From IMG/VR virus record IMGVR_UViG_3300029798_000006, positions 1 through 53,698 of that record: DNA of 53,698 nt. One strand, given 5' to 3'. Within the stretch, counting starts at the first letter, position 1, and each line of letters begins with the position of its first letter. This document shows positions 42,641 to 50,584 of this stretch, one piece after another. A program made the translations under genes and the position numbers. The DNA comes from a virus. The notes beneath the pieces are model-generated. The model searched no databases. It saw only the letters and a list, made by a program, of their open reading frames with translations, and was not told the DNA's origin.

Positions 42641-43975
42641 ATGGAACATCTAACAGAGACTTTAGTTAAAAAGTGGACTCCTATATTGGATCATAAATCA
42701 CTTGACCCAATCAAAGATTCCTACAAAAAGAGTGTTGTAGCTACTATTTTAGAAACTACTGAAACTGTCTTAGGCAGCCAGGGTATGGTTTTTGAAGGTA
42801 ACGTAGCTGGTGATAGCATGTCAGGTAACTATTCTGCGTCTAACAATTCAGATAATGGTTCGCTATCAAACTTCACCCCAGTTCTTATTTCACTTATCCG
42901 TCGTGCTATTCCTCAGCTTATCGCTTTTGATATCTGTGGTGTTCAGCCGATGACAATGCCTACCGGACTTATCTTTGCTATGAGATCTGGATATGCTAAT
43001 ACAACTTCTGCTTTCCATAAGGAAGCATTGTTCAACGAAGCAAACTCTGCATTCTCAGGTGCTTCTTCTGGACATGGTGTAGCTGGTCTTCCAGGTACAG
43101 CAAATAATGCTCTTGCTCTATTTGATATTGGTATTGGTATTTCTACATCTACTGGTGAAGCAGATTCTGCATGGCCTCAGATGGGATTCACAATCGAAAA
43201 AGCAACAGTTGACGTTCAGACTCGTAGATTGAGAGCTGACTACACTTTAGAGCTTGCACAGGATCTTAAAGCAGTTCATAACCTTGATGCAGAATCAGAA
43301 CTTTCTAACATCCTTTCACAGGAAATCTTAGGTGACATTAACCGTGAAGTTACTCGCCTTATTTATTCTGTAGCTAAAGCTGGTGGAACAAACAGCGTTG
43401 GTTCAGTTCAGCTTCAAGTAAAAGGTGGTATAAAAGCTGACATTGATGGTCGTTATTTTGCAGAACAGTGGAGAGGACTTCAGTTCTTAATCGAACGCGA
43501 CGCTATTGGTATTGCAAAAGATACTCGTAGAGGAAAAGGTAACTTTATCATTGTTGATGCTGAAACCGCTTCTGCACTTTCACTTGCTGGTGTTCTTGAT
43601 TACTCTACAGTAATTTCACCTAAAGCAACTCTTGCTGATGTGCCAGATGAAACTACATCAACCTTTGCCGGTACACTTGGTGGACGTCTTAAAGTATATG
43701 TAGATCCTTACGTTACTCTTGGTGCTAACTTCTATTGCGTAGGTTATAAAGGAACATCTCCTTATGATGCTGGATTGTTCTATTGTCCTTACGTTCCTCT
43801 ACAGTTGGTAAGAGCACAGGATCCTCATACATTCCAACCAGCAATCGGTTTCAAAACTAGATATGGTCTTGTAGAACATCCTTTCTCAGGTTCAACTTAT
43901 TCACATAAGATTAACCCAGGTGCATCTCACCAGAACAAATATTACAGAATTGCTGTAATCAATGGCTTAATATAA
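42641..43975 (+). CDS. gp23: Major capsid protein gp23
   Basis: 444 aa (T4 521). Clear gp23 features: W-T-P-I-L-D-H near the start, L-I-R-R-A-I-P-Q-L-I-A-F-D-I-C-G-V-Q-P-M (about 85-104), the R-A-D-Y-T-L-E-L-A-Q-D-L-K-A-V-H segment and C-V-G-Y-K-G-T-S-P-Y-D-A-G (366-378) with G-F-K-T-R-Y-G after it. Forms the HK97-fold capsid lattice. Codon use is richer in C-ending codons than its neighbours, as expected for a very highly expressed gene. Confidence 0.97.
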   Translation: MEHLTETLVKKWTPILDHKSLDPIKDSYKKSVVATILETTETVLGSQGMVFEGNVAGDSMSGNYSASNNSDNGSLSNFTPVLISLIRRAIPQLIAFDICGVQPMTMPTGLIFAMRSGYANTTSAFHKEALFNEANSAFSGASSGHGVAGLPGTANNALALFDIGIGISTSTGEADSAWPQMGFTIEKATVDVQTRRLRADYTLELAQDLKAVHNLDAESELSNILSQEILGDINREVTRLIYSVAKAGGTNSVGSVQLQVKGGIKADIDGRYFAEQWRGLQFLIERDAIGIAKDTRRGKGNFIIVDAETASALSLAGVLDYSTVISPKATLADVPDETTSTFAGTLGGRLKVYVDPYVTLGANFYCVGYKGTSPYDAGLFYCPYVPLQLVRAQDPHTFQPAIGFKTRYGLVEHPFSGSTYSHKINPGASHQNKYYRIAVINGLI

Positions 43976-44070: not shown

Positions 44071-44625
44071 ATGCCATCGACACAGAAAGTAAATAATCTA
44101 AATTTTCTATCAACTACAGGGTTTTCTTTTGCATTGGCAAGATGTCCTAATTTAACTTGGTTTGTTCAGGAAATTAACATGCCTGGTATATCTCTAGGTG
44201 ATTCATCAAGAAATTATGCTACAGGTAAGGCAGCTATCCCTGGTGATAATTTGGAATACAACGAACTTACATTAACATTTGCTATTGATGAGTCTATGAA
44301 TAATTGGAGAGAAATCTACAATTGGATGAGAAGTCTTGCCCCAACCCGTTTAGGAAAAGAAAATAATCAATATGCTACTTTAAGTAATTCTGATTTTGGT
44401 AGAATTTCTGATGGAACTCTTCTTATTATGACTAATTCTGTTAATGTTAATATAAGTGTAGATTTTAAAGATTTATTTCCCACTTCACTTTCTAATATTG
44501 AATTTAGAACAACGGATACTGCTATAGAAGCAATAACATCTACAGTATCATTTAGATATAGTTATTATAATATAAGAGTAAACCCTGAGTATAATCTAAC
44601 TTCAGTACCTGATAATATAGTATAA
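44071..44625 (+). CDS. Tail structural protein (tube-like; gp3 position)
   Basis: 184 aa. N-L-N-F-L-S-T-T-G-F-S-F-A-L-A-R-C-P-N and F-V-Q-E-I-N-M-P-G-I-S-L-G are the first strands of a tail-tube-like fold; N-N-W-R-E-I-Y-N-W-M-R-S-L follows at about 90. T4-like marine phages encode a similar protein here, and in the conserved order gp23-gp3-uvsY this position is held by the tail completion protein gp3. I cannot separate gp3 from another tube-like baseplate protein, so no symbol is given. Confidence 0.65.
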   Translation: MPSTQKVNNLNFLSTTGFSFALARCPNLTWFVQEINMPGISLGDSSRNYATGKAAIPGDNLEYNELTLTFAIDESMNNWREIYNWMRSLAPTRLGKENNQYATLSNSDFGRISDGTLLIMTNSVNVNISVDFKDLFPTSLSNIEFRTTDTAIEAITSTVSFRYSYYNIRVNPEYNLTSVPDNIV

Positions 44626-44866
44626 AAATAACATGTTCTGCGCGAGTTTCTTTTAATTAAAGGTAGTTATATCATCTATATTAAATAATATAAAATATAT
44701 GAAATTATTTGTATGCCAGTATTAACTCTCTTCCCCTCATTTTAGAAATAACATGTTCTGTGCACTTCATAATCTTCTCTTTTTCTAGTAAATGTTACTA
44801 TTTCTTTTTTAGCCCGACATTTCTATATTATTCTTATAAGAAAGATTGAACTAAAATAAAATTAAG
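44626..44866 (+). other. Intergenic region with a 15-bp direct repeat
   Basis: AAATAACATGTTCTG occurs at 44626-44640 and again at 44746-44760, with similar bases after it. The 241-nt gap has no ORF. AT-rich, with no clear terminator or T4 late octamer; the repeat may be a regulatory site or a relic of duplication. Confidence 0.6.
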
Positions 44867-45238
44867 ATGTCAACAAAGTCTTCAGAAGTTATAGTAGCAT
44901 TATATAGAGATTCATTTAATGGTGATCATGGTACATTTTATAACTATGATATAATTATGAAAAATGGTGATGATGGAATTTATACTTCTACCACCAAAAA
45001 TCAAGATAGATTTATAGTTGGTAAGGAGACAGAATATACCATATCTAGGTTTAATGGGAAAGTTAAAATAAAACCGATATATGGATTGCAAAAAGAAAAA
45101 AATGAATCTAATAAAATTATTGAACTTTTACAGGATATTCAATCTAAATTATACGATCAAGAGTATTTAATCTCTGAAATAAGAAAAGATATTAAGGGAT
45201 TGAAAAATTTAAAACAACAAGTCGTTAATCTTACTTAA
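44867..45238 (+). CDS. Unknown small protein with C-terminal coiled coil
   Basis: 123 aa. Beta-rich N-terminal half (V-I-V-A-L-Y-R-D-S-F-N-G, Y-D-I-I-M-K-N-G, F-I-V-G-K-E-T-E-Y-T-I) then a helix with L/I heptads from about 82 (I-I-E-L-L-Q-D-I-Q-S-K-L). It ends 1-2 nt before the candidate ncRNA region. The N-terminal pattern could be an OB-type or SH3-type barrel. No family recognised. Confidence 0.65.
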   Translation: MSTKSSEVIVALYRDSFNGDHGTFYNYDIIMKNGDDGIYTSTTKNQDRFIVGKETEYTISRFNGKVKIKPIYGLQKEKNESNKIIELLQDIQSKLYDQEYLISEIRKDIKGLKNLKQQVVNLT

Positions 45239-46075
45239 CGAATGTAGTACAAAAGAACAAAAGGTGGACCCATAGTAGTATTTGCGAAATATAGAAGAGA
45301 GCATCTAAATATTATGGGAACAGAATATCTGAAAACCCGGGGCTTGCAGATGGAGAACAATAGTAAGAATTGTTGCTGAATACCGGAGTCGCAGAGAAAG
45401 AAACCACCACCGCTAATGGCGGTTCCTTAGTCGAGGAGTCAACACCTATTGATTACACTTGAAAGAGTTGTCAGACAGCAAGGTGTGTAGGCAGTAAGAA
45501 ATTACTGTTGAGATAAGGTCACGTTTTAGGAAGGACACGAAAGTGCCTAGAAATTCAGTGAGACTATGATTTACAGAATCAGAAATAATTTCTAAGATGA
45601 GAGAACTGTTTCTTCTCATTAAGACAAAAAAAAGAACACACGATCCAGTCTAGTAATGAAGTTACACGGCGCGCATCCCTAATCAGGTTAAAGGCGTTCA
45701 CGAAAAACTGAGGGACAATTTGTATTTTTTATTTTTCTTGAACTTCACGTGAGATCCGACAAGGAGCCGTCTTGCGTGAAGACAGGAGCACTCTGGTAAT
45801 CAGGGTTTGGATAATCTAAAAGCATTTAACCTTGATAAGCTAATAAGCTAGCAATCATCTAACCTTGATAATCCAATATTGATAAACTAGCAATCAAGCA
45901 ATTATCTAACCCTGGAAAACCCTAACCACATGGAGCCTTGCTCCAACAGAATTGGAAACCAATTCTGTAGAACATGATTATCAAGCATAACCATCATAAC
46001 CATTAAAATACAAGTAGAGCCTAGTCAAGACGGGCTATTCAAGGGTTTAGTACTTGATTTCTTTTTGTCTAATCA
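45239..46075 (+). ncRNA. Candidate large structured non-coding RNA
   Basis: About 840 nt without a plausible gene, with higher GC than its surroundings and many perfect or nearly perfect stems. Examples: ACCGC/GCGGT (45409-45423), CAGTAA-GAAA-TTACTG (45492-45507), a CAC-GAAA-GTG hairpin (45536-45545), ATGAGAGAA with TTC-T-TCTCAT (45597-45619), TCCCT...CAG with CTG-AGGGA (45676-45715), CTTCACG/CGTGAAG closing CAAG/CTTG (45743-45781), CAGGGTT...GATAAT with ATTATC...AACCCTG (45801-45914), TGGAGC/GCTCCA (45931-45945), ACAGAATTGG-AAA-CCAATTCTGT (45946-45968). It may end at TCAAG/CTTGA plus a T-rich tract (about 46040-46066). Size is in the range of GOLLD and ROOL RNAs, known in phages, but family membership is not shown. 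+ strand is favoured because GNRA loops appear on it. Confidence 0.65.
45827..45896 (+). repeat. Interleaved short direct repeats inside the ncRNA region
   Basis: TAACCTTGATAA at 45827-45838 and 45860-45871; CTAGCAATCA at 45848-45857 and 45887-45896. They lie within the loop closed by the long CAGGGTT stem, so a duplicated sub-domain is likely. Confidence 0.85.
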
Positions 46076-46115
46076 CTTGCTATATTATTAATCAAGAATA
46101 ACTTAAAAATAATTA

Positions 46116-46556
46116 ATGGCAAAGATAGAAGACATAGAAGAACTTTGGAATAATGATTGTGAAATAGATTCAGTCATGCTAGATGTAGCTGCTTTAGATA
46201 TTCCTAAATTACATAATAAATATCTTATTATTCATAACGAAGTAAGATTACTTTTATTACAACTAGAAGAAAAGTATAATGATCTTGCTATGATAAAAAG
46301 TTCATATTATACCGGTAAAATGTCTAAGGAAGAATTAGATGAAAAAGGATGGGAACCATTTCAGATCAAGGTTCTTAGGAGTGATGTAAAATCTTATCTA
46401 GAAACTGATCCTGACGTAAGAAAGATTAAAACAAGAATAGAATATAATAAGATAGTGCTAGAATACCTTAAATCTATAATAGAACAGATTAATAAAAGAA
46501 ATTTTAGTATATCTTCTGCAATTGCTTGGAGAAAGTTTACATCAGGAGAACATTAA
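46116..46556 (+). CDS. uvsY: Recombination mediator UvsY
   Basis: 146 aa (T4: 137). N-terminal I-E-E-L-W-N-N-D-C-E-I-D, the L-H-N-K-Y-L-I-I-H-N-E segment and the C-terminal N-K-R-N-F-S-I-S-S-A-I-A-W-R-K-F-T-S-G are the conserved UvsY pattern. It loads the UvsX recombinase onto gp32-coated ssDNA. uvsW follows after 3 nt, as in T4-like phages. Confidence 0.92.
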   Translation: MAKIEDIEELWNNDCEIDSVMLDVAALDIPKLHNKYLIIHNEVRLLLLQLEEKYNDLAMIKSSYYTGKMSKEELDEKGWEPFQIKVLRSDVKSYLETDPDVRKIKTRIEYNKIVLEYLKSIIEQINKRNFSISSAIAWRKFTSGEH

Positions 46557-46559
46557 CGG

Positions 46560-48008
46560 ATGCCAGATGTAATTATCCATAAGGTAGATCAGGTTTGGTT
46601 GAAGGTAGAATGTGAAAAAAGTATTCTTTATGAAATTTCAGACGCATTTTCTTTTTATGCTCCTAATTATAAATTCAATCCAAAATTTAAACATAAAATT
46701 TGGGATGGAAAGATTAGGTTAATTAATTTATCTTCATGTAAGATGTATTATGGTCTGCATTCTTCTTTAAAAAAGTTTTTAGAAAAATCAGATTATTCTG
46801 TAGAATATGCAGCTGGGTTCTTTAATAAATCTACTATTAGTTATGATCCTAAAGAAATTGAATCTGCTAATTTTGAACCTAGAAATTATCAAATAGAGGC
46901 AGTTAAATTTGCGTTAGAAAATAAAAGATGTATTCTTCTTTCTCCAACTGGGTCTGGAAAATCTTTTATTATCTACATGATAATGAAGCACATTAAAAAA
47001 AGAACATTAATAATAGTTCCTACTATAGGTTTAGTTCATCAACTAGCGTCTGATTTTGTAGGATATAATCCAAAATGTGCCAATTGGATTCATAAAATAA
47101 TGGCAGGAGAAGATAAGGACACAAAGAAACCTATAGTAATATCTACTTGGCAAAGTTTAACTAAACAAACAGATAGTTGGTTTAATCAATTTGATTGTAT
47201 AGTAGGAGATGAAGTTCATTTATTCGCTGCCACTTCTCTATGTGGAATTATGGAAAAAAATCATAATACAGAATGGAGAATAGGAACAACAGGAACTATA
47301 TCTAATGTGGATGCTAAAGTTAATTCTCTTACATTAGAAGGTCTTTTTGGAACGATTTATAAAGTTTCTTCTACAAAGGAATTAATGGACGATAATTATT
47401 TGGCAAAATTCAAAATAAACATTTTACTTTTAAAACACGACAAAGAGACTAGTATTAAAGTTCGTAAAATGAATTATCAAGAAGAAGTAGACTTCTTTGT
47501 TAGAAATGAAAAAAGAAACAAGTTTATTTGTAATTTAGCATTATCACAAAAAAAGAATACTTTAATTTTATTTCAGTTTGTAGAAAAACAAGGCAAAGTC
47601 CTTTATGAAATGATAAAGGAGAAAGCTGGTAATAAAAAGATTTATTTCATATCTGGAGAAATTGATGGTGAAATTAGAGAAAAAATAAGAAATTCCGTCA
47701 ATTCTAGTGAAGATAATATAATAATTGGAAGTTTTGGAACAGTTTCTACAGGTTTGGATATTCCTAATTTGCATGTGATAATATTTGCATCTACATATAA
47801 ATCAAAGATTAAAAATTTACAGTCTATAGGTAGAGGTTTAAGATTAAATGAAGGAAAAGATATTGCGGTTCTCTATGATATTGTAGATGATTGTTCTGTA
47901 AAATCTAAAAAAAATTATTCCATATTACATTTATTGGAAAGAATAAAAATATATAATGAAGAACAGTTTGATTTTAAAATAATAGATATTCCATTTAATA
48001 ATAAATAA
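46560..48008 (+). CDS. uvsW: DNA/RNA helicase UvsW
   Basis: 482 aa (T4: 503). N-terminal domain (H-K-I-W-D-G-K-I-R-L), then R-N-Y-Q-I-E-A-V (Q motif-like), Walker A T-G-S-G-K-S (130-135), Walker B D-E-V-H (217-220), motif III T-G-T-I and motif VI Q-S-I-G-R-G-L-R. Superfamily 2 helicase that resolves R-loops and drives branch migration and the switch from origin- to recombination-dependent replication. Confidence 0.95.
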   Translation: MPDVIIHKVDQVWLKVECEKSILYEISDAFSFYAPNYKFNPKFKHKIWDGKIRLINLSSCKMYYGLHSSLKKFLEKSDYSVEYAAGFFNKSTISYDPKEIESANFEPRNYQIEAVKFALENKRCILLSPTGSGKSFIIYMIMKHIKKRTLIIVPTIGLVHQLASDFVGYNPKCANWIHKIMAGEDKDTKKPIVISTWQSLTKQTDSWFNQFDCIVGDEVHLFAATSLCGIMEKNHNTEWRIGTTGTISNVDAKVNSLTLEGLFGTIYKVSSTKELMDDNYLAKFKINILLLKHDKETSIKVRKMNYQEEVDFFVRNEKRNKFICNLALSQKKNTLILFQFVEKQGKVLYEMIKEKAGNKKIYFISGEIDGEIREKIRNSVNSSEDNIIIGSFGTVSTGLDIPNLHVIIFASTYKSKIKNLQSIGRGLRLNEGKDIAVLYDIVDDCSVKSKKNYSILHLLERIKIYNEEQFDFKIIDIPFNNK

Positions 48009-48021
48009 AATAAAATACAAC

Positions 48022-48363
48022 ATGAGTAACAGTAGGTACAGTAAAGGTGCTATTAAGTATGATTTAAATCCAGTAGACACTACAGGAATGAATGATGAAG
48101 ACACCGAATTTTTTGGAGAAAAAAAGAATGCTAGATTTCAATTTAGATCAAATAACAATAAACCTGGTATTGGTGTAGCACTTCATAAAGAAGAGTCTGT
48201 AGATTCTTTGATAAAAAGATTTAAAAAGAGTATGTTAGAATCAGGTAAGATGAAAGAATACGCAGAAACTCAATTCTTTGAAAAACCTTCTATATTAGCT
48301 CGTAAGAAAAAGTCCAATAGAAGATATAAAGCAAAACTTGCATCAGAAATTACAAATAACTAG
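48022..48363 (+). CDS. rpsU: Phage ribosomal protein bS21
   Basis: 113 aa; the last ~60 residues are bS21: G-V-A-L-H-K-E-E-S-V-D-S-L-I-K-R-F-K-K-S-M (49-69), G-K-M-K-E-Y, F-F-E-K-P-S and R-K-K-K-S-N-R-R-Y-K. The order of E-S, R-F-K and F-(F/Y)-E-K-P-S is diagnostic. About 48 residues form an N-terminal extension absent from bacterial bS21. bS21 binds the 30S platform near the anti-Shine-Dalgarno region; phage copies are known and could replace host S21 to favour phage mRNAs. It lies between uvsW and the late sigma gene, so timing is probably middle to late. Ends in TAG. Confidence 0.85.
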   Translation: MSNSRYSKGAIKYDLNPVDTTGMNDEDTEFFGEKKNARFQFRSNNNKPGIGVALHKEESVDSLIKRFKKSMLESGKMKEYAETQFFEKPSILARKKKSNRRYKAKLASEITNN

Positions 48364-48379: not shown

Positions 48380-48973
48380 ATGGCAGCAAAAAAGATTAAT
48401 TATGTAGACAATAAGAAACTATTTGCAGAGTTAGTGAAATATAAAGAAGCTCAGGCAAGATCATTAGCAGAAGATAAGAAAAGACCTCGAATCCCTGAAT
48501 ACGTCGGCGAATGTATTTTGTTGATTGCACAGAGATTGAGTTATAAATATCAATTTGCTAATTATATATTTAAGGAAGATATGCAAATGGACGGTGTAGA
48601 AAATTGTTTACTTTATATAGACAATTTTGATCCAGAAAAGTCTCAGAATCCTTTTGCATATTTTACTCAAGTTATTTATTATGCATTTTTAAGAAGAATA
48701 CAAGGCGAGAAAAAACATCTTTATTTGAAGTATAAACTACAACAGAATAATGATAATATGGACAATAATGTTACGTTTCAGTCTGGCGATACTTCTAGAG
48801 AAATGATTTATACAGGACAATCCTTTTTGGACCTAGATAAAGTAGATTCTTTTATTACAGATTTTGAGAGTTACATGAGTAGAAAGAAAGAACCACCTAA
48901 GAACATATTATTAGATGCAATAGAGCCTATTTTAGAAATAGAAAATGAACTAAAAGAACCTAATGACTTATAA
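48380..48973 (+). CDS. gp55: Late transcription sigma factor gp55
   Basis: 197 aa (T4: 185). The core I-A-Q-R-L-S-Y-K-Y-Q-F-A-N-Y, then M-D-G-V-E-N-C-L-L-Y-I-D-N-F-D-P-E-K-S-Q-N-P-F-A-Y-F-T-Q-V-I-Y-Y-A-F-L-R-R-I (written here in two runs: residues ~70-83 and ~95-110) is the sigma region 2-like segment of gp55. It recognises TATAAATA. GGGAG lies 4 nt before the ATG. Its stop overlaps a possible ATT start of the next frame. Confidence 0.93.
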   Translation: MAAKKINYVDNKKLFAELVKYKEAQARSLAEDKKRPRIPEYVGECILLIAQRLSYKYQFANYIFKEDMQMDGVENCLLYIDNFDPEKSQNPFAYFTQVIYYAFLRRIQGEKKHLYLKYKLQQNNDNMDNNVTFQSGDTSREMIYTGQSFLDLDKVDSFITDFESYMSRKKEPPKNILLDAIEPILEIENELKEPNDL

Positions 48974-49254
48974 TTACGATAAAAAATGAATTTCCTAAGT
49001 TAGATTTCGTAATAGAGAAAACTATTATTGAACCTAAAACAAGAAGATTTAGACCTGATTGGCATAAACATTCTTTTCTTAATGGTGATTTTATACTATT
49101 TAAGAAAACTAAAAGGAATTTGATAAGCTTTTATCTTGAGAAATTTAAAAGAAAAGTATTTGGAGAACCTAATAGACGTTATGAGACAAGAAATAAATCT
49201 ATAGTTTCATTAACAAGAACTTTTACACCAAATAAATTGAAAATTGGAAAATAA
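48973..49254 (+). CDS. Unknown protein without an ATG start
   Basis: An open frame of ~93 codons between the gp55 stop and 49254 has no ATG, GTG or TTG near its beginning; the first candidate is ATT at 48973 (overlapping the gp55 stop), or ATA at 48979. It would give M-T-I-K-N-E-F-P-K-L-D-F and a basic protein with R-R-F-R-P-D-W-H-K-H-S-F and F-G-E-P-N-R-R-Y-E-T-R. Basic composition suggests nucleic-acid binding. The next gene starts inside it. Real coding is likely from codon composition and tight packing; the start is unproven. Confidence 0.55.
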   Translation: MTIKNEFPKLDFVIEKTIIEPKTRRFRPDWHKHSFLNGDFILFKKTKRNLISFYLEKFKRKVFGEPNRRYETRNKSIVSLTRTFTPNKLKIGK

Positions 49255-49504
49255 CTTAATAGACAAATTTAGAAAAAGGCGTGAAGAAGAAGCTAGTCGT
49301 AGAAATAGCTATTATACTCTTCATGAAGTATCTATAGAAGGTATTAAAGATTTTAGAGAAAGATATAAAAGTTATGTTGGCTACAAAGGAAGATCTTCTT
49401 ATGATGCTGGATTTTTCTATTGTCCTCACATTCCTTTAATTATATCATATAAATTGACTGAGGGAAAGAGAATAAAAGATTTAAACAAAAAAATAAAAGA
49501 TTAG
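49244..49504 (+). CDS. Small protein with a gp23-like segment
   Basis: 86 aa from TTG at 49244, overlapping the previous frame by 11 nt. The N-terminal half is basic and helical (F-R-K-R-R-E-E-E-A-S-R-R-N). Residues 45-65 read V-G-Y-K-G-R-S-S-Y-D-A-G and F-Y-C-P-H-I-P-L, identical at 16 of 21 positions to the major capsid protein of this phage (about 367-387). The rest has no resemblance. It may bind where this gp23 segment binds, or be a relic of recombination. Stop is TAG. Confidence 0.65.
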   Translation: MENNLIDKFRKRREEEASRRNSYYTLHEVSIEGIKDFRERYKSYVGYKGRSSYDAGFFYCPHIPLIISYKLTEGKRIKDLNKKIKD

Positions 49505-49507
49505 ATA

Positions 49508-50584
49508 ATGGCATTTATTGCAATGATAACAGATCAACATTTTGGTGTGCGCGGTGATTCGCAAATATTTCTTGATTACCAAAGGAAGTTTTTTGAAGAA
49601 ACCTTTTTCCCTTATTTAAAAGAACATAATATTGTTTCTGTTTTTGAACTGGGTGATACCTTTGACAGACGCAAGAATGTCAATTACAACACATTACATC
49701 ATGTTAAGGAATTTTATTTTGATCATCTTCAAGCGTCAAATATACAATTACATTCTATAGTTGGAAATCACGATGCGTTTTTTGGCAATAGAATAGACAT
49801 AAATTCCATTCTCGCACTTCGCGAATATTCCAATATTAAGAGTTACGAAAACCCAGAAGATATAGAAATAGATGGGTGTAAATTTTTAATGATGCCTTGG
49901 ATAAATTCGGAAAATTCTAAACCATGTGTTGATGCTATAAATAATACCGATGCTCATATAATGATTGGTCATTTTGAGTTATCTAACCAAATACTTCAGA
50001 GGAATTTTAAATTCTCAGGTGGAATAAATTTAGAAGATGTAAAAAAATTCGAAATTGTTCTTAGTGGACATTATCATCATAAAATCACAAAGAAAAATTT
50101 TAAATATCTAGGAACCCCATATCAAATGGCATGGGATGATACTGATAACGAAAAAGGTTTCCATGTCTTTAATACAGAAACTAGAGAAATAACTTTCATA
50201 AAGAATCCTCATGATATTTATATGAAGATTTTTTGGGAAGATAAAGGTGATTATGATATTACCGAAAAGTTAGATTTTGTTAATAATCATCAAGATGCTT
50301 TTAGAGATAAGTATATAAAGATTATAATAAAACAAGGAGCTAATCCATATATTTTAGATAGATATATTGATGCATTAGAGAATTGTGACCCGCATAGTGT
50401 TGTTACAGAAGATCCAATAATTCAATACAGTCAAGAAGAGTATATAGAACCTTTAGATAACATAGAAGACACTCTTACTATTCTTAGAAAACATATAAAT
50501 TCAATTGAAAATTACTCTAATAAGAATAAGTTACTAAATTATATAGAAGATATCTATAACGAAGCACTACAAATAGAGGAGTAA
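49508..50584 (+). CDS. gp47: Recombination nuclease subunit gp47 (Mre11-like)
   Basis: 358 aa (T4: 339). Calcineurin-type phosphoesterase motifs: D-Q-H-F-G-V (8-13), L-G-D-T-F-D-R-R (47-54), G-N-H-D (84-87), I-G-H-F-E (about 150) and S-G-H-Y-H-H (about 180). With gp46 it processes DNA ends for recombination-dependent replication and degrades host DNA. gp46 begins 5 nt downstream. Confidence 0.95.
   Translation: MAFIAMITDQHFGVRGDSQIFLDYQRKFFEETFFPYLKEHNIVSVFELGDTFDRRKNVNYNTLHHVKEFYFDHLQASNIQLHSIVGNHDAFFGNRIDINSILALREYSNIKSYENPEDIEIDGCKFLMMPWINSENSKPCVDAINNTDAHIMIGHFELSNQILQRNFKFSGGINLEDVKKFEIVLSGHYHHKITKKNFKYLGTPYQMAWDDTDNEKGFHVFNTETREITFIKNPHDIYMKIFWEDKGDYDITEKLDFVNNHQDAFRDKYIKIIIKQGANPYILDRYIDALENCDPHSVVTEDPIIQYSQEEYIEPLDNIEDTLTILRKHINSIENYSNKNKLLNYIEDIYNEALQIEE

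Follow-up and report, generated by a model that had tools for sequence, protein, structure and literature searches.

The gene-free stretch at positions 45239-46056 of IMG/VR record IMGVR_UViG_3300029798_000006, an uncultivated T4-like phage, probably encodes, on its + strand, a large structured RNA of ~0.8 kb that is free-standing and not listed in Rfam 15. To our knowledge, phages have yielded few large structured RNAs, and no task is known for any of them. All 53,698 bases of the record were analysed and are referred to below as the window. An initial sequence-only reading of this DNA had placed a large structured RNA here. The non-coding gap, its position and covariation at the same locus in two relatives, L083 and L084, speak for that placement, whereas the folding energy of the interval as a whole is unexceptional. 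The RNA is non-coding and separate from the promoter that belongs to uvsY.

The gap upstream of uvsY and its promoters

The window shares 34 kb of identical sequence with a second contig, IMGVR_UViG_3300022555_000024 (112 kb), and the two merge into 131.5 kb. Protein families reveal a T4-like gene layout around the gap (Table 1). None of the cultured phages is close, the best capsid identity being ~50% and the best UvsY identity ~41%. Between the genes for the late sigma factor and the gp47-like nuclease, an 86-aa ORF (49244-49504) encodes a short major-capsid-like fragment, which matches Pfam Gp23 304-326 and PHROG 138 360-388 and reads as a stray capsid piece.

The gap spans 877 nt (45239-46115) and is the longest gene-free one both in the window, as had been claimed, and in the merged 131 kb. 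It contains no ORF of at least 60 aa. Stop codons number 12-23 per frame in all six frames, and the codon-usage scores of all three + frames are negative (-0.46 to -0.65 per codon, vs +0.19 for uvsY). Coding potential is thus absent from the interval, as expected of large structured phage non-coding RNAs in general, and the sequence-only reading was right on this point. It was also right that the base composition differs, since the G+C content of the gap is 0.37-0.42 vs 0.24-0.30 in the flanks.

Two motifs are enriched upstream of genes, namely TATAAATA, which is of the T4 late type, and TATATTAT, which mostly has a T-rich box 12-13 nt upstream and precedes 10 of 77 starts (1.5 expected). The TATATTAT class matches T4 middle promoters in its spacing and is found before uvsY, a T4 middle gene; by inference from these features, we label the class middle-type. 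Its member at 44824 outscores all others in 131 kb by position weight matrix (PWM), being itself among the nine seed sites, and is the presumed promoter of both the 123-aa ORF and the RNA. It shares ATTTCTTTTT with the uvsY promoter, a PWM hit of 16.4 at 46081, 35 nt upstream of the uvsY start. A uvsY leader is thus too simple a description of the RNA, given that this separate promoter lies between the RNA and uvsY and that promoters also precede the RNA. The uvsY promoter box begins at 46057, so the 3' end of the candidate RNA is better placed near 46056 than at 46075.

In the window, no separate promoter for the RNA is present from the end of the 123-aa ORF to 46050. In the relatives, a -10-like motif of the same class as that before uvsY lies directly upstream of the RNA (L083, 665; L084, 3982). 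The codon score of the 123-aa ORF resembles that of uvsY; the ORF has no Pfam or PHROG match and is found only in the identical contig. Upstream of it are two near-identical 21-nt repeats (TARAAATAACATGTTCTGYGC) at 44623-44643 and 44743-44763, 120 nt apart, whose core AACATGTTCTG has no other + strand occurrence in 131 kb.

Table 1. Features in and around the gap upstream of uvsY, in window positions
Feature	Position	Strand	Details
Major capsid protein gene	at 42641		protein families
Tail tube gene	at 44071		protein families
Putative middle-type promoter	44800..44831	+	T-rich box TTTCTTTTTT, -10-like TATATTAT
123-aa ORF	44867..45238	+	directly upstream of RNA, same presumed transcription unit
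Candidate large structured non-coding RNA	45239..46056	+	start uncertain; end placed before uvsY promoter box
Outermost helix	45245-45257 with 46059-46071		13 pairs, probability 0.68-0.87, A/U-rich
Hairpin CCCAUAGUA/UAUUAUGGG	45269..45318	+	pair probability 0.99
Long-range helix UACCGGAGU with ACUCUGGUA	45381-45389 with 45790-45798	+	9 pairs, probability 0.97
GAAA-capped hairpin GGCAGUAA-GAAA-UUACUGUU	45490..45509	+	probability 0.91
GAAA-capped hairpin, tip CAC-GAAA-GUG	45532..45548	+	probability 0.82-0.97
12-bp stem CUUCACGUGAGA/UCUUGCGUGAAG	45743..45781	+	core of most stable segment, probability 0.99
Two imperfect 43-nt direct repeats (TTGATAA...CTAACC)	45832..45921	+	77% identity, start-to-start 47
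Adjacent hairpins UGGAGC/GCUCCA and perfect 10-bp ACAGAAUUGG/CCAAUUCUGU	45931..45968	+	probability 0.96, 0.99
uvsY's own promoter, same putative class	46057..46088	+	between RNA and uvsY
uvsY recombination mediator	46116..46556	+	PHROG 231, E 7e-41; Pfam UvsY, E 6.5e-30
uvsW helicase	46560..48008	+	PHROG 16, E 3.5e-99
Ribosomal protein bS21 homologue	48022..48363	+	Pfam S21, 44.6 bits
Late sigma factor gene	at 48380		protein families
gp47-like nuclease gene	at 49508		protein families

Predicted fold and covariation at the same locus in relatives

Fold energy by itself is not decisive for the interval, with z values of -3.8 (20 shuffles) and -2.6 (40 shuffles); 3 of 31 other 842-nt windows fold with a lower score. 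Segment 45689-45988 alone is exceptional, its z of -5.5 being the lowest among the 300-nt values computed. The - strand of the interval folds about equally well, and the direction of the RNA therefore rests on the promoters and on synteny. Well over nine stems are predicted, in keeping with the earlier count of at least nine, and both GAAA-capped hairpins recur in the prediction, at 45490-45509 and 45536-45545. The earlier reading also described a 14-pair long-range helix, for which it gave no coordinates. The outermost long-range helix predicted here has 13 pairs and is doubtful. It consists largely of A and U, and the T-rich box of the uvsY promoter (46057-46067) serves as its 3' arm, so the pairing may be fortuitous. 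The perfect 10-bp hairpin is present as described (45946-45968) but carries little weight, since about five places in the window have one (8 matches in overlapping registers; 0-4 matches in shuffles).

Scans with UvsY, UvsW, the tube and the 123-aa protein yielded three other contigs of the clade with sequence near the locus: L083 and L084, whose UvsY is 64-65% identical, and L190, whose capsid is 75% identical. L190 is the closer by tube and capsid (72-75%), and its contig ends 110 nt past the tube gene. A genome-collection search returned a single remote tube fragment and nothing else. Both L083 and L084 have a gene-free stretch of 530-580 nt at the tail-tube/uvsY junction, the same place as in the window. 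About 100 other T4-like loci have <250 nt from tube to uvsY, or protein genes there. Tube-to-uvsY gaps of L049, L052 and L148 that appeared ORF-free were considered as counterparts and proved on reading to be coding.

The predicted RNA of L083 and L084 is 420-450 nt long, with 76% mutual identity. Substitutions between the two are flat over codon positions (31/33/33), as compared with 64/30/109 in the neighbouring tube gene and 14/5/52 in uvsY, and the indels measure 1, 2, 3, 4 and 16 nt. The stretch is thus free of the codon periodicity that the sequence-only reading had named as evidence against an RNA. A fold model of 13 helices, 80 pairs (G-U pairs included) and three pseudoknots keeps 80 of 80 pairs in both sequences. 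In this model, which is drawn from two sequences and whose helices were picked by inspection of the same alignment that served for the controls, 12 pairs change on both sides (5.9 in shuffles; 0-2 when slid). With the same limits, three helices of at least 5 bp carry two or more double changes (0.5 in column shuffles; three reached in 1 of 200). Taken together, the pattern of changes lends good support to a covarying, pseudoknotted RNA fold predicted at the L083/L084 locus. Covariance analysis had been proposed as a check on the window RNA, whose other copy is identical, and the paired changes come from the same locus in L083/L084.

The most conserved block of the L083/L084 RNA (L083:697, L084:4018) contains AAGGA-N6-ATG and an ORF of 14-18 codons beginning MALAQKVL..., which possibly encodes a leader peptide. 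Further along in L083 (1997-3889), uvsW is seemingly split after GDEC by an intein-like insert that ends in ...NGINVSNC.

Homology searches and comparison with known RNAs

Rfam 15 has no family at gathering score in the window, and relaxing the threshold to E 10 for the interval gave only chance-level snoRNA-type and similar matches. Rfam searches of L083, L084 and other loci, at gathering and permissive thresholds, gave no large RNA family. The sequence-only reading had suggested either the GOLLD or ROOL class or a new class. A GOLLD or ROOL identity is not supported, as neither has an Rfam covariance match in the interval, the rest of the window, L083 or L084, and a new class is the better of the two suggestions. 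Nor did Rfam or ARAGORN lend support to a group I/II intron, a tmRNA or RNase P, and these readings were set aside.

Against 50,697 phage records, a DNA search with the window RNA gave one weak 64-nt match to an Erwinia phage (E 0.9), and the L083/L084 RNAs gave short or weak matches only. In pattern scans of IMG/VR, a segment of the window RNA matched nothing but the identical contig, which carries the only other copy found of this RNA, and the relatives' RNA matched nothing but the two known contigs. Neither blastn nor MAFFT matches the window RNA to the L083/L084 RNA. With filters off, covariance models R1 and R2, built from L083/L084, scored at best 5.8 and 7.2 bits on the + strand of the window region; both of these hits fall within the 123-aa ORF rather than the RNA, and a 13.4-bit hit on the - strand of the region was judged to be chance. 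The window RNA and the L083/L084 RNA agree in position, strand, non-coding nature and promoter class, and differ in sequence and in length (~820 vs 420-450 nt). On these comparisons the two are not demonstrably homologous: one RNA gene may have diverged rapidly, or another RNA may have replaced the original at the locus.

Large RNAs in ORF-free phage gaps have precedent (PMC7567579, PMC12286853). The Vibrio phage ICP1 has a ~1 kb ORF-free gap and an abundant ~800-nt RNA (PMC7567579). The window RNA resembles it in lying in an ORF-free gap of a lytic phage and in its size of ~800 nt, whereas the ICP1 RNA sits at the lysis cluster; the phage collection shows no similarity at E <=1 except the weak Erwinia phage match. 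With GOLLD, the candidate has in common that it is phage-encoded, ~800 nt long, ornate and devoid of a coding frame. GOLLD is frequently a neighbour of tRNA islands (PMC12286853). In the window phage, by contrast, those tRNA and tmRNA genes that were found are >20 kb from the RNA. The window itself contains no tRNA or tmRNA, and the nearest one found in the extension of the phage is a tmRNA at merged position ~68250. The tmRNA gene of the extension is complete (L182:9045-9411, equivalent to G001 49045-49411; Rfam RF00023, 104.8 bits) and specifies the tag ADTFEYRMAA, with a tRNA-Asp and a second tRNA-like match further along. ROOL, likewise a large RNA of phages or prophages, is pseudoknotted and not known to have a protein partner (PMC12286853); the present RNA differs from it in lacking an Rfam match and in its genomic setting.

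Other RNA elements were seen in T4-like phages. Between their capsid and tube genes, L120 (~900-1210) and L117 (~2560-2860) have a stretch free of ORFs that looks like another structured RNA, on the - strand, with no Rfam match. A glutamine riboswitch is present at L123:2646-2708 (RF01739, 59.9 bits).

Alternative explanations and possible function

Flanked by the 123-aa ORF and uvsY on one and the same strand, the RNA might act only in cis, as a leader or attenuator of uvsY/uvsW or as a 3' UTR stabilising the 123-aa mRNA, and have no trans function. Without its own promoter the window RNA would indeed be a 3' extension of that mRNA, and the L083/L084 RNA begins with the AAGGA-N6-ATG and possible leader peptide described above. 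We nonetheless regard a purely cis-acting role as unlikely, in view of the uvsY promoter between the RNA and the uvsY start in the window, of a length (0.4-0.8 kb) that is very long for a leader, and of L083 and L084, which are without the 123-aa ORF yet keep an RNA. A functionless, decayed or foreign sequence with chance stems, for instance what remains of a gene or mobile element, would account for a fold energy within the range of coding windows, for searches that found no homologue of the window RNA beyond the identical contig and for other close T4-like loci that have no gap at this junction. This is very unlikely given a covarying RNA at exactly the same junction in both nearest relatives with sequence there, the z of -5.5 for 45689-45988 and the otherwise tight packing of phage genomes.

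The stretch could also be origin DNA or encode a primer RNA, as at T4 oriF. There, RNA transcribed from a middle promoter pairs into an R-loop at an A+T-rich unwinding element and serves as primer for DNA synthesis until UvsW removes the R-loop (PMC3016281). The present stretch shares the neighbourhood of oriF, next to uvsY and uvsW (PMC3016281), with the locus at uvsY beside middle-type promoters; such putative promoters flank the present stretch on both sides, and its direct repeats (45832-45921) could be iteron-like. For T4 oriF, or ori(uvsY), ~100 bp comprising the promoter and the A+T-rich element suffice, with no demand on RNA sequence and no need of a structured RNA (PMC3016281), whereas the present stretch is G+C-richer than its surroundings, and the covariation in L083/L084 is of RNA type, with G-U pairs and pseudoknots. 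Additionally, the sign of the GC skew is unchanged across the stretch, and the origin-like part, the uvsY promoter at 46081 with its A+T-rich leader, lies downstream of the RNA. A replication origin is therefore a distinctly unlikely explanation.

Under the preferred reading, a free-standing structured RNA, a host-type RNA polymerase would start at the putative middle-type promoter at 44824, before or around the time of uvsY expression, and would transcribe first the 123-aa ORF and next the RNA; processing may then release the RNA. The RNA would fold into a compact multi-domain structure and may work in trans during infection, as a folded RNA or an RNA-protein particle; this proposed role is modelled on those suggested for GOLLD, ROOL and the ~800-nt RNA of ICP1.

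A bS21 gene lies within a few hundred nt after uvsW in the window, L083 and L084. A bS21-like match near uvsW occurs in 13 of the 124 loci with >1.2 kb after uvsW, all 13 being copies of the three RNA-bearing viruses, and a profile search of all fetched T4-like loci likewise places bS21 beside uvsW only in RNA-bearing viruses; S21 is found elsewhere in the contig in 2 of 22 other T4-like contigs. Because the three RNA-bearing viruses form one clade, the co-occurrence of RNA and bS21 counts as a single event at most. OLE is a mostly cellular RNA of Bacillota with partner proteins of its own. It binds bS21 via a mimic of Shine-Dalgarno/anti-Shine-Dalgarno pairing (PMC12054373). The likeness to OLE lies in a large ornate RNA with a bS21 gene close by in the window phage, L083 and L084; the difference is that neither the window nor the interval matches the OLE covariance model. 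Short UCCUU/AAGGA or UCCU/AGGA helices occur in all three RNAs and are often expected by chance. The phage bS21 as a partner of the RNA is thus a speculative proposal, and that the two form a ribonucleoprotein acting on translation initiation or host ribosomes during infection has, in our estimation, only a very slim chance of being correct.

If the preferred reading is true, at least one family that Rfam does not list would be added to the large structured phage RNAs, and the L083/L084 form is supported well enough for modelling. The RNA would occupy a fixed place in the recombination block of these T4-like phages, where the promoters predict its timing and the nearby bS21 gene suggests a possible partner.
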